The notes below the pieces were generated by a model. It had not been told where the DNA came from. It made no database searches and worked only from the letters and a program-made list of their open reading frames with translations. DNA of 64,000 nt from Gemmatimonadaceae bacterium. Its GTDB lineage: Bacteria > Gemmatimonadota > Gemmatimonadetes > Gemmatimonadales > Gemmatimonadaceae. Below, piece by piece: positions 19,825 through 23,944 of this stretch (position 1 is its first letter; each line of letters starts with the position of its first letter). Where the stretch lies: the NCBI GenBank assembly GCA_025928185.1, contig JAICKA010000006.1:1-64000 (forward strand), in the 5' to 3' direction. Position numbers and translations under genes: made by a program.

Positions 19825-20814
19825 GTGGCCAGTACCTTCACTTACGATGTCGTGATCGTCGGCGGCGGCCCGGCGGGTATGTGCGCCGGCATGTACGCCG
19901 GTCGCGCGATGCTCAAGACTGTCGTACTCGAGCGCGGCACCCTCGGCGGCGAGCTGCTGAATACGGAGATTGTCGAGGACTACCCCGGCTTCGAGCGGGT
20001 GCTCGGCCACGAGCTGGCGCAGAAATTCGCCGACCACGCCGCCAAGTTCGGCGCCGAGTTCCGGACCGGGGTCGTCGTCGAGTGCGTCCGCAAGCTGGAT
20101 GACGAGACGTTCGAGACGCGCACGGAAGCCGGCGACATCTTTCGTTCCAAGACTGTGATCGTCACAGCGGGCGGCACGCCGGTGAAGCTCGGCGTGCCGG
20201 GCGAGCTGGAGTACGCCGGCAAGGGCGTGTCGTACTGCGCCATTTGTGACGGCGCATTCTTCCGCAACGAGATCATCGCGGTCGTCGGCGGCGGCGACGC
20301 AGCTACGGAAGAGGCGGACTTTCTCACGCGATACGCCGAAAAGGTCTATTTGATCCACCGGCGCGACGAGCTGCGCGCATCGAAGATTCTCCAGGAGCGG
20401 CTGTTCGCGAATCCCAAAGTGGAAGTGATCTGGAATCACGTGGTGGAGCAGGTGGAAGGCGACGGCAACGGTCTCGTGCGCAACCTCAAGCTGCGCGATG
20501 TGACGACGAATGCGGCGCGGGATCTCGGAGTCACCGGCCTGTTCGTGTTCGTTGGATTCCGACCGAACACCGGCATCATCGAAGGGCACGTCGACCACGA
20601 CGACATGGGATATCTGCTGACCGACGCGAACATGCAGACGAGCATCCGCGGGTTGTTCGCCGCCGGCGACGTCCGCGCGCAGCTGACGCGCCAAGTGACG
20701 ACGGCCGTCGGCGATGCGACCACCGCGGCGATCGCCGCGGAGAAATACCTCAAGGCGCTCGAGGACGGCGACGCCAGCGAGCCGATTGTCGGCACCGGCG
20801 GGTACACGGCGTGA
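19825..20814 (+). CDS. trxB: Thioredoxin reductase
   Basis: A 329-residue flavoprotein that passes electrons from NADPH to thioredoxin or a similar partner. The FAD loop is VVIVGGGPAGMCAG, the redox disulfide is in SYCAICDGAFF, and the NADPH loop is VVGGGDAATEEADF. The C-terminal FAD motif GLFAAGDVR is present. The start is GTG at 19825, preceded by GAGGA. Its stop overlaps the MBL gene start (GTGA). The downstream genes include an AhpD-like candidate selenoprotein that would need a thiol reductant. Confidence 0.93.
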   Translation: MASTFTYDVVIVGGGPAGMCAGMYAGRAMLKTVVLERGTLGGELLNTEIVEDYPGFERVLGHELAQKFADHAAKFGAEFRTGVVVECVRKLDDETFETRTEAGDIFRSKTVIVTAGGTPVKLGVPGELEYAGKGVSYCAICDGAFFRNEIIAVVGGGDAATEEADFLTRYAEKVYLIHRRDELRASKILQERLFANPKVEVIWNHVVEQVEGDGNGLVRNLKLRDVTTNAARDLGVTGLFVFVGFRPNTGIIEGHVDHDDMGYLLTDANMQTSIRGLFAAGDVRAQLTRQVTTAVGDATTAAIAAEKYLKALEDGDASEPIVGTGGYTA

Positions 20815-21452
20815 AGATCCTCTCGCGCACTGTCGGCGCCTTTCAGGAGAACACCTATCTCGTGATCGACGAAACAGCGCAACGCGCGGTGCTCGTCGAC
20901 CCAGGCGACGAGCCCGATCGCTTGATCGAAATGGTCGAGCAGTCCGGGGCGACACTCGACGCGATCTGGCTCACGCACGGTCATCTCGATCACGTCGGGG
21001 GCATCGCCGGCGTGCGTCGCCGCTGGCCCGTGCCGGTAAGTCTGCATCCCTCTGACCTGCCGCTGTACGCGAACGCGGCGGAGCAGGCGGAAGCGTACGG
21101 GCTGTCGATCGAACAGCCGGAGCTTCCAGATCGCGAGCTGGCCGACGGAGACCGCTTGACGGTCGGCTCGCTCGAGTTCGACGTGCTGCACATGCCCGGA
21201 CACTCGCCGGGGCACGTCGTCTTTCGGCACGGTACGACCGTGATGGGCGGCGACCTGCTGTTCGCCGGATCGATCGGTCGCACGGACCTGCCGCTGGCGG
21301 ATCCGGCGCAGATGGAGGAGTCGCTCGCGCGCTTCTGCGAGCTGGACGAAGCAACCGTCGTGCACCCGGGACATGGTCCGCGAACGACAATTGGCCGCGA
21401 GCGCGCCACCAACGGCTTTCTCACCGGTGCTGCCCGCATCGTGAGGCGCTGA
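20811..21452 (+). CDS. Metallo-beta-lactamase fold hydrolase, glyoxalase II-like
   Basis: A 213-residue MBL-fold protein. The zinc motif THGHLDHVGG is complete, and further ligands lie in MPGHSPGH and HPGHG. Proteins of this length are hydroxyacylglutathione hydrolase-like or persulfide dioxygenase-like; the sequence alone does not choose. GTG start overlaps the trxB stop. It is 3 bp from the DUF4149 gene. Confidence 0.82.
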   Translation: MKILSRTVGAFQENTYLVIDETAQRAVLVDPGDEPDRLIEMVEQSGATLDAIWLTHGHLDHVGGIAGVRRRWPVPVSLHPSDLPLYANAAEQAEAYGLSIEQPELPDRELADGDRLTVGSLEFDVLHMPGHSPGHVVFRHGTTVMGGDLLFAGSIGRTDLPLADPAQMEESLARFCELDEATVVHPGHGPRTTIGRERATNGFLTGAARIVRR

Positions 21453-21455
21453 GCG

Positions 21456-21938
21456 ATGGCGCAGCGCCTGCTGTGGCCGACGATTCAGCTCATCGTGCTC
21501 GCGGTGTGGATCGGCGCGGCCGTGTTCTTCAGCGCCGCGGTCGCGCCCGTGCTCTTTCGCGTGTTGCCGACGCGCGCGCTGGCCGGTGAAGCCGTGGCCG
21601 GCATGCTCCCGGTGGTGTTCTATTCGGGCATCGTCGCGGGTCTCGTCGTCCTCCTGGTCGAGTTGACGCTCGACGACGGCCATCCATGGTCGGGACGCAC
21701 GGTGGCCGCGGTCGTCATGATTCTCGCATGCGCGATCGCTCAATGGTTCATCGCCCCGCGCATCGCGCGTGTCCGTGACGCGATCGCCGGTCCGGTGGAC
21801 AACCTGCCGGTGTCGGACCCGCGCCGCGTGGCGTTCGGCCGATTGCACGGCTTGAGCGTCGGCTGGCTCGGTATCGCAATTCTCGCCGCGCTGGTGGCGC
21901 TCGTGCTCGTCGCTCGCACGTTTCAAACCCGGAGATGA
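21456..21938 (+). CDS. DUF4149/TMEM205-like membrane protein
   Basis: A 160-residue protein with four predicted helices. The start of the first helix, LIVLAVWIGAAVFFSAAVAP, and LPVVFYSGIVAGL in the second fit the DUF4149 family. Function is unknown. The last four bases ATGA form the start of the following AhpD-like gene, so the two are coupled. Confidence 0.75.
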   Translation: MAQRLLWPTIQLIVLAVWIGAAVFFSAAVAPVLFRVLPTRALAGEAVAGMLPVVFYSGIVAGLVVLLVELTLDDGHPWSGRTVAAVVMILACAIAQWFIAPRIARVRDAIAGPVDNLPVSDPRRVAFGRLHGLSVGWLGIAILAALVALVLVARTFQTRR

Positions 21939-22477
21939 CTGCTATGGACCAGGAACCGCGCGTCACGCGCGTCGACCCCGCCGCTGCCGACCCGACGCTT
22001 CGCGAATCGTTCGATGGATTCCTCCGCGCGCGCGGCAAGGTGCCGAATCTCTTTCGCATCGCGGCGCACAACCCGCCCGTCGGTCGGACGCTCTCGGCGC
22101 ACCTGGATGCGGTGATGGGGCCGGGCACCGTCGGAGAGTTGCTCAAGGAACTCTGCGCCGTTCGCGTCTCGCAGTTGAACAGCTGCGAGTATTGACTGGC
22201 TTCCCATACCGCCTTGGCAAGGCGGCTGGGTGCGACGGACGAGCAGATTCGGTCGCTCGGCGGCGGCGACGTGTCGTCGTTCGAGCCGGCGTGGCGCGCG
22301 CCGCTGCGCGCGGCGGCCGAGATGACCAACGGCGGCGGACGGTTGTCCGAGGGCACGTACCAGGCGCTCGCCGCCGACTGGACGGAGGCGCAGATCGTCG
22401 AGATCGTCGCCGTGATCGGCCTGTTCAATTACTTCAATCGTTTTGCCAACGCCCTCCAGATTCCGCCCACGAAGTAG
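21935..22477 (+). CDS. AhpD-like/carboxymuconolactone decarboxylase-family protein with in-frame TGA, candidate selenoprotein
   Basis: Reading through the TGA at 22193-22195 gives 180 residues, the usual length of peroxidase-related CMD/AhpD-like proteins. The first part (86 residues) ends AVRVSQLNSCEY, and the part after the TGA begins LASHTALARRLG and continues to FNYFNRFANALQ. In the family the active site is CxxC followed three residues later by His. Here it is Cys84-Glu-Tyr-[TGA]87-Leu-Ala-Ser-His91, so the TGA stands exactly at the second cysteine. Both sides stay in frame and look conserved. A hairpin follows at 22203-22230 with SECIS-like geometry. I read this as CxxU selenocysteine. 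A TGC-to-TGA mutation or sequencing error is the alternative. ATG 21935 overlaps the DUF4149 stop. Confidence 0.78.
22203..22230 (+). promoter_or_regulatory. Candidate bacterial SECIS hairpin for the UGA at 22193-22195
   Basis: The upper stem pairs 22209-22215 (CCGCCTT) with 22219-22225 (AAGGCGG) around the loop GGC (22216-22218). A lower stem pairs CCCA (22203-22206) with TGGG (22227-22230), and an internal loop TA/C lies between the stems. The loop starts 20 nt after the UGA and its first base is G. Known bacterial SECIS elements have a stem-loop at about this distance with a G at the start of the loop. It lies within the coding sequence, as expected. Confidence 0.68.
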
Positions 22478-22510: not shown

Positions 22511-23944
22511 ATGACCGATACCCGCCGCGAGAAGGACCCGCTCGGACCACTCGACGTTCCCTCCGACGCGCTGTACGGCGTGCAAACCGTGCGCGCGCAG
22601 CAGAATTTCCCGATCAGCGGCCTGCGTCCGCTCGACGCCTTCGTCACCGCCCAGGTGTGGATCAAGAAGGCCGCCGCGCTCGCGCACAAGGAAACCGGAC
22701 GCCTCGATCCGAAGCTTGCCGATGCCATCATCGCCGCCGCGGACGAAGTGCTCGCCGGCGAGCATCGCGACCAGTTCATCGTCGATCCGTATCAGGCCGG
22801 GGCGGGCACGTCCCACAACATGAACGTGAACGAGGTGCTGGCGAATCGCGCCAACGAGATGCTGGGGGCGAAGCGGGGCACGTACAGTCCCGTGCATCCC
22901 AACGATCACGTGAACATGGCGCAGTCGACGAACGACACGATTCCGACCAACATCCGACTCGCGTGCCTGTCGGAGCTCGGCAAGCTCGACGCATCGTTCG
23001 AACGCCTGCGCTCGGCGTTGGCTGCGAAGGGCCGCGAGTTCGATGACGTCGTGAAGGCGGGACGTACGCATCTCCAGGACGCGATGCCGATCCGGCTCGG
23101 CCAGGAGTTCACGGCGTACAGCGGCTCGATCGCCCGCGGGCTTCGACGCGTGCGCGAAGCCGCGGACTATTTGCGCGATCTGGGCATCGGCGGCAGCGCC
23201 GTCGGCACCGGTGTGACCGTCGAGCCGGAATACCCGGCGCTGATGAACAAGTACCTGCGGCAGATCACGGGACTTGAATTGCGCATCGGACAGGATCGCA
23301 TCCAGCTGATGCAGAGCATGGGCGATGTGGCCGGCTTCAGCGCGCAATTGCGCGTGCTCGCCATCGACCTGAGCAAGATCGCCAGCGATCTGCGGCTGAT
23401 GGTGATGGGCCCCCGCACCGGCATCGACGAGATCACGTTGCCGGCGGTGCAGCCCGGATCGTCGATCATGCCGGGCAAAATCAATCCGTCGATTCCCGAG
23501 ATGGTCAATCAGGTCTGCTTTCAGGTGATCGGCTGCGATACCACGGTGACGATCGCCTCGGAGCATGGCCAGCTGGAGCTCAACGTGATGATGCCGGTGA
23601 TCGCGTTCAACGTGTTGTTGTCGCTCCGCATTCTCACCAACGCGGCCGGCGTACTCGCCGACAAGTGCGTCAGCGGAATCAGCGCGAATCGCGAAATGTG
23701 CGAGTACTGGGTGGAGCGCTCGGCGGCGCTCGCGACGGCGCTCGCGCCACAGATTGGCTATGCGAAGGCAGCCGAGATCAGCAAGCAGTCGGTAAAGGAA
23801 GGCGTGCTCATTCGAGACCTGGTGAAGCGCGAAAAGCTGCTACCACCGGACCAGATCGACGATGTGCTGGATCTGCGCAAGATGACCGACATCGGCGTTC
23901 CCGGCGCCTCGTCGAAGGGTACCGGCGCAAAATCCCGGTCTTAG
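22511..23944 (+). CDS. aspA: Aspartate ammonia-lyase
   Basis: A 477-residue member of the aspartase/fumarase superfamily, the same length as E. coli AspA. The signature GSSIMPGKINPSIPE is present, with the catalytic serine loop. The following NQVCFQVIGCDTTVTIA and GQLELNVMMPVI match aspartase rather than class II fumarase. It reversibly removes ammonia from aspartate to give fumarate. It precedes an Rrf2 regulator by 10 bp. Fumarase activity is a lesser possibility. Confidence 0.85.
   Translation: MTDTRREKDPLGPLDVPSDALYGVQTVRAQQNFPISGLRPLDAFVTAQVWIKKAAALAHKETGRLDPKLADAIIAAADEVLAGEHRDQFIVDPYQAGAGTSHNMNVNEVLANRANEMLGAKRGTYSPVHPNDHVNMAQSTNDTIPTNIRLACLSELGKLDASFERLRSALAAKGREFDDVVKAGRTHLQDAMPIRLGQEFTAYSGSIARGLRRVREAADYLRDLGIGGSAVGTGVTVEPEYPALMNKYLRQITGLELRIGQDRIQLMQSMGDVAGFSAQLRVLAIDLSKIASDLRLMVMGPRTGIDEITLPAVQPGSSIMPGKINPSIPEMVNQVCFQVIGCDTTVTIASEHGQLELNVMMPVIAFNVLLSLRILTNAAGVLADKCVSGISANREMCEYWVERSAALATALAPQIGYAKAAEISKQSVKEGVLIRDLVKREKLLPPDQIDDVLDLRKMTDIGVPGASSKGTGAKSRS

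Follow-up and report, generated by a model that had tools for sequence, protein, structure and literature searches.

The DNA analysed here, hereafter the window, is a stretch of 64,000 nucleotides from a Gemmatimonadaceae bacterium. It is contig 114 of a MAG of 3.71 Mb (288 contigs, 90.1% complete, 5.3% contaminated). A gene for an AhpD-like protein with one in-frame TGA lies in a tight forward-strand cluster headed by a thioredoxin reductase gene (Table 1). From trxB to the AhpD-like gene, neighbouring genes overlap by 4 bases or stand 3 bases apart; downstream come aspA and the gene of an Rrf2 regulator. The order trxB, MBL, (TM), ahpD, aspA, rrf2 is kept in many Gemmatimonadota loci, whether selenocysteine (Sec) or Cys is encoded, and the trxB synteny is absent from the Acidobacteriota loci. 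No NCBIfam match was obtained for the 160-residue hydrophobic protein. At one Gemmatimonadota locus (L067:1592-2600) the cluster trxB is 40% identical to that of the window, compared with 64-82% in most others, as if it had been replaced by a reductase of another type.

Table 1. Features of the locus and the selenocysteine genes of the same genome. Ranges without a contig label are window positions; C53, C78 and C278 are other contigs of the genome.
Feature	Location	Strand	Remarks
trxB, thioredoxin-disulfide reductase	19825..20814	+	TIGR01292, 355 bits over its cut-off; heads the tight cluster
GloB-like MBL-fold hydrolase	20811..21452	+	4-base overlap with trxB
160-aa hydrophobic protein	21456..21938	+	own TGA stop overlaps ATG 21935
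GGAG, likely ribosome-binding site of ATG 21944	21931..21934	+	inferred from the sequence
Predicted AhpD-like selenoprotein CDS	21944..22477	+	177 aa, Sec at residue 84; from the upstream ATG 21935, 180 aa, Sec at residue 87
Codon of putative catalytic Glu72	22148-22150	+	upstream of the CEYULASH codons
CEYULASH motif codons (Cys, Tyr, Sec, His)	within about 22184-22207	+	translation, alignment, comparison with PA0269
In-frame TGA predicted to be read as Sec, second position of CxxU	22193..22195	+	translation and homolog alignment
Lower stem of the bSECIS hairpin	22203-22206 with 22227-22230	+	in this genome; less conserved among homologs
bSECIS upper hairpin	22209..22225	+	stem 22209-22215 / 22219-22225, 7 bp; loop GGC 22216-22218
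aspA, aspartate ammonia-lyase family	22511..23944	+	directly downstream; conserved neighbour
tRNA-Sec	C53:34833-34926		74.2 bits, cut-off 47; ARAGORN agrees
selD	C53:33815-34738		369.9 bits, cut-off 125; TGA in CAGUAAK
selB	C78:94555-96381		356.7 bits, cut-off 242
selA	C278:3499-4815		542.7 bits, cut-off 268

When the TGA is read as U, positions 21935-22477 of the forward strand form a single open frame of 180 residues, and its only U, residue 87, stands in the context ...NSCEYULASHTALARR.... A reading made earlier from the sequence alone had described this frame as one AhpD/CMD protein of 180 residues that is interrupted by a TGA and would be split by gene callers. The interrupted frame was borne out, since the read-through protein matches one domain across the TGA and purifying selection is seen both 5' (dN 0.21 / dS 0.90) and 3' of it (dN 0.25 / dS 0.64) in the comparison with a 69%-identical homolog, L010. 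A chance meeting of two frames is thereby excluded. Mechanical ORF calling did yield two ORFs, one of 86 aa and one of about 87 aa from TTG 22214. The proposed length needs revision, as the true start is probably ATG 21944: the GGAG is suitably placed for it and several homologs begin there, while ATG 21935 directly abuts the GGAG and overlaps the stop of the preceding gene (TGA 21936-21938). Residues are numbered from 21935 below. In the window, 407 TGAs have 30 open codons on each side, and these were compared by codon scores. Those that score like the present one include normal junctions between a stop and the next start, such as 45088, which immediately precedes a NadD-like start, and others that resemble reverse-strand shadow frames; none was kept as a candidate.

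The uninterrupted protein is a member of the CMD/AhpD superfamily, with scores above the curated cut-offs of Pfam CMD (PF02627; 68.4 bits, cut-off 23, the match spanning the TGA) and NCBIfam ahpD_dom (TIGR00778; 56.9 bits, cut-off 27.8). AhpD-like proteins of the PDB match the read-through protein over nearly its whole length. The AlphaFold model has a pLDDT of 93.9, and its top Foldseek matches are the AhpD-like peroxidase-related proteins 2pfx, 2prr, 6k40 and 3c1l together with the debrominase Bmp8 (TM about 0.85). The E...C-x-x-C/U...H active site is found in the two-helix hairpin of this all-helical fold. E72, C84, Y86, position 87 and H91 are invariant in an alignment of ten sequences, which agrees with the earlier remark that the His four positions after the TGA is kept. 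The spacing E-12-C-2-Y-1-U-4-H is that of E36/C48/Y50/C51/H55 in PA0269 (PMC3141380). The best NCBIfam match is TIGR01926 (peroxidase-related enzyme), with a score of 77.9 bits against a cut-off of 81.8, and the scores of homologs straddle this cut-off (L010 81.2, L014 83.7, L011 66.9). Because of this borderline score the protein is filed as AhpD-like and not as TIGR01926. It also fell below the cut-offs of the YciW-related (seleno)protein model NF053654 (63.7 bits, cut-off 310) and of canonical AhpD, TIGR00777 (21.3 bits, cut-off 191.95), and no NCBIfam model named (seleno)protein attained its cut-off on this protein.

Immediately after the TGA the RNA reads CUGGCUUCCCAUA-CCGCCUU-GGC-AAGGCGG, which gives a 7-bp stem and a 3-nt loop with G first, the loop being 20 nt from the UGA. 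The energy of the upper stem is -9.5 kcal/mol, and about -15.2 kcal/mol with the lower stem. The published bSECIS model (PMC13188914) has a loop of 3-9 nt with G first, a stem of 4-16 bp, a spacing of 16-37 and an energy <= -7.5, and the hairpin of the window satisfies all of these constraints. As a single sequence its energy is not unusual for such GC-rich DNA (z -1.4). Moreover, 3 of the 1548 TGAs in the window satisfy a comparably strict hairpin rule, so the hairpin by itself is weak evidence and covariation decides. Among 53 distinct TGA sequences the hairpin columns are 99.7% paired, with compensatory changes in four of the seven pairs (27 cells); none of 500 shuffles matched the pairing or compensation values, and control hairpins slid along the alignment were 31-64% paired. 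Across 43 Cys sequences, pairing in these columns is 28.2%, as in the shuffles. RNAalifold returned the identical seven pairs unprompted. For the Sec reading that the sequence-only reading had proposed, the strongest test is this covarying hairpin, which only the TGA homologs possess; it was absent from the checks listed there.

Protein and RNA constraints both appear visibly to act on these codons. A frequent coupled exchange pairs ACC to ACT, which is synonymous for Thr, with CGG to CAG, which turns Arg into Gln; a second pairs GCC to GTC, which turns Ala into Val, with AGG to AGA, which is synonymous for Arg. In the genome of the window the stem is written with rare codons (TTG 9%, GCA 6% and AGG 1% of their families). 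A search of this genome with the SECIS model gave 71.4 bits at the window site and 19.5 bits for the next match, and no second copy was found. A second, strong stem-loop lies just upstream of the TGA (22168-22189; 9 bp, z -2.6). As a mean of only 5.7 of its 9 pairs is kept in homologs, no element is claimed, and it probably arises as a side effect of the protein sequence.

The same genome carries selA, selB, selD and tRNA-Sec, all of which had been named earlier as genes to look for. All four lie on contigs other than that of the window, so a binning error is possible in principle; a second genome of the genus with the same TGA (G005) also has tRNA-Sec and selA. The selD of the window's genome is a selenoprotein gene itself, of the known CAG-TGA-AAK form, and is located about 95 bases before tRNA-Sec (G000:C53:33815-34926; L048, L001).

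Homologs were collected as matches above 190 bits in 395 genomes of the phylum Gemmatimonadota. They were found in 39 genomes, with TGA at the Sec codon in 33 and another codon in 6; the non-TGA homologs examined in this phylum carry TGC. Both TGA and Cys forms occur in Acidobacteriota. The named loci come from Gemmatimonadota, many Acidobacteriota and single MAGs of Planctomycetota and Pseudomonadota. The aligned homologs encode Sec by TGA or else have Cys at this position, in keeping with the earlier proposal that the TGA takes the place of the second Cys of CxxC. tRNA-Sec was detected in 31 of the 33 TGA genomes and selA in 26, against one of the six Cys genomes in each case. At least one of the two is present in 32/33 TGA and 1/6 Cys genomes (Fisher p = 6e-5, uncorrected for relatedness). 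The TGA genomes lacking a tRNA-Sec match are G202, which has selA, and G355 (86% complete), in which neither gene was found. G014 is the sole Cys genome with tRNA-Sec and selA. Three other Cys genomes (G012, G338, G071) gave weak tRNA matches of 46-49 bits that look like tRNA-Ser background, with no accompanying selA. In the whole phylum, 290 of the 395 genomes have a tRNA-Sec match, a number possibly inflated by a few tRNA-Ser genes that score near the cut-off.

These results were weighed against readings that do without selenium. The TGA could be an error of sequencing or assembly that hides a TGC or TGT codon, or the gene could be a pseudogene with a recent nonsense mutation; TGC is one base away from TGA, and the window comes from a MAG. 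However, at least 53 distinct sequences, which come from independent assemblies in two phyla, share this TGA at the corresponding codon, always together with the hairpin, and the part 3' of it is under purifying selection. The independent homologs refute error and pseudogene alike, and we consider either exceedingly improbable. A genome-wide reassignment of TGA, such as the Trp reading of code 4, has nothing in its favour beyond the one in-frame TGA. Eight of the 12 confident genes in the window terminate with TGA, so the codon otherwise serves there as a normal stop. Homologs that lack the TGA have Cys instead, and a dedicated tRNA-Sec is encoded in the genome. Reassignment is refuted by these observations and its probability is practically nil.

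It is also conceivable that the TGA is a real stop between two short proteins, and the two ORFs obtained by mechanical calling are exactly those that this predicts; or an ordinary amino acid might be inserted at the codon. The helix hairpin that carries the AhpD active site, however, extends across the TGA, and homologs in genomes free of Sec machinery have Cys at this codon, never Trp or any other residue. Both readings are also at odds with a SECIS that covaries and is restricted to TGA forms, and we regard them as very unlikely. We conclude with a probability of about 0.95 that the gene encodes a functional AhpD-like selenoprotein, in which UGA 22193-22195 is read as Sec via the SECIS hairpin. 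The frame, the place of the TGA within it, the SECIS, the Sec genes and the exchange of Sec for Cys among homologs are all directly visible in the sequences; insertion of Sec in the cell is what we infer from them.

The distribution of the two forms suggests that Sec is an old trait of this subfamily, with several later losses. On a quick tree of 96 proteins there are 6 Sec/Cys changes, compared with 31.8 for shuffled labels, and the majority of Cys sequences group in clades that lie within the Sec sequences (unrooted tree, moderate supports). In addition, one Terriglobia MAG (L063:3278-3796; JASHTR010000071.1) has a Cys homolog with TGT and an intact hairpin, CCGCCTT-GGC-AAGGCGG, and this looks like a recent replacement of Sec by Cys in which the hairpin is still undecayed. 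In a clade of Acidobacteriaceae the first Cys is missing (N-x-T-P-Y-C) and the second, at the Sec position, is kept (L099, L102, L103, L107, L108, L110, L112-L115, L120-L123, L125, L128, L130), which suggests a one-cysteine mechanism there. More distant AhpD-like genes also have an in-frame TGA at the same CxxU position: L021, L022, L025, L026, L027 (CxFU) and L029 (CRYU). L026 belongs to the genus of the window. The four that were scanned, L021, L025, L026 and L029, all exceed the TIGR01926 cut-off, which points to at least one second type of AhpD-like selenoprotein in these bacteria.

In the proposed mechanism, the downstream hairpin would recruit SelB carrying Sec-tRNA-Sec, so that the UGA would be read as Sec, with SelA, SelD and tRNA-Sec supplied by the same genome. 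The active site would consist of Glu72, Cys84, Tyr86, Sec87 and His91. The selenolate of Sec most likely attacks a peroxide or a related oxidised or halogenated substrate; Sec87 would then form a selenenyl-sulfide with Cys84, which a dithiol system would reduce again. Thioredoxin is the likeliest reductant, given that the conserved cluster begins with trxB, the probable source of electrons. This link is circumstantial, because the trxB synteny is shared by Cys loci and does not extend to Acidobacteriota. The thiol peroxidase-type function proposed earlier is plausible in view of the active-site residues, and our best guess is a likely role as a thioredoxin-linked selenol peroxidase/reductase.

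It is quite possible, though we do not favour it, that the main reaction of the selenoprotein is other than peroxide reduction and that it acts as a thiol-disulfide adaptor or a Bmp8-like reductive dehalogenase. The Bmp8 debrominase structures 6ohi and 6ohj are among the top fold matches, but the identity to Bmp8 is only about 21%. AhpD of M. tuberculosis mainly links a lipoyl protein to AhpC (PMC3141380), and some 5 kb upstream the window contains a gene that by sequence encodes a lipoyl-type E2. However, the adjacent reductase gene is trxB and not lpd, and the AhpC-type C-terminal domain PF10417 was not found in the 90%-complete genome, so the classical role of AhpD as reductant of AhpC is unsupported. 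Taking all parts together, we lean slightly towards a distinct subfamily of AhpD-like selenoproteins that occurs in both Gemmatimonadota and Acidobacteriota, has a single conserved and covarying SECIS and is missed by the current NCBI selenoprotein models. In this subfamily Sec would be the older state and Cys the result of repeated Sec loss, and the Gemmatimonadota members would be thioredoxin-linked selenol enzymes encoded with their reductase.

The selenoprotein content of both phyla is likely to be under-counted, since standard gene callers would split this gene or call it broken and no NCBIfam (seleno)protein model reaches its cut-off. The family also offers a clean natural experiment, in which a gene with and without Sec occupies the same genomic place and the SECIS decays after Sec loss. 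The identification as a selenoprotein is well supported and not fundamentally new, because the CxxU kind of AhpD-like protein has long been catalogued. As the sequence-only reading had stated, such selenoproteins have been listed since 2005-2008 (COG2128, 299 marine sequences; PMC2398784), and an 'AhpD-like protein, TIGR01926, CxxU' is listed in PMC13188914. In the literature searched, we found no description of one from Gemmatimonadota. The listed proteins (COG2128/TIGR01926; 'AhpD-like 1' of the Global Ocean Sampling set; MCB9421940.1 as the reference sequence in reviews) share the fold family, the CxxU position and the size of the window protein, which differs in scoring below the TIGR01926 cut-off. 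NF053654 is a recognised Sec/Cys family that matches it over the full length but, given the score, represents another subfamily.

Among Cys enzymes, PA0269 of P. aeruginosa (2o4d, 2ijc) matches in fold and has the same five active-site residues and spacing, but it has Cys in place of Sec and a shorter chain of 145 residues. A proton relay has been described for PA0269 and weak reduction of H2O2 measured (PMC3141380). The best structural matches, 2pfx, 2prr, 6k40 from D. radiodurans and the debrominase Bmp8 (6ohi), with TM of about 0.82-0.86, are all Cys enzymes and only 21-28% identical to the window protein. M. tuberculosis AhpD (1gu9) has the equivalent set E118/C130/C133/H137 (PMC3141380), but its chain topology is different (TM about 0.54), and the window protein is likewise far from the canonical AhpD family by score. 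The chemistry belongs to a known kind, and the present protein extends existing knowledge of this group without overturning it.
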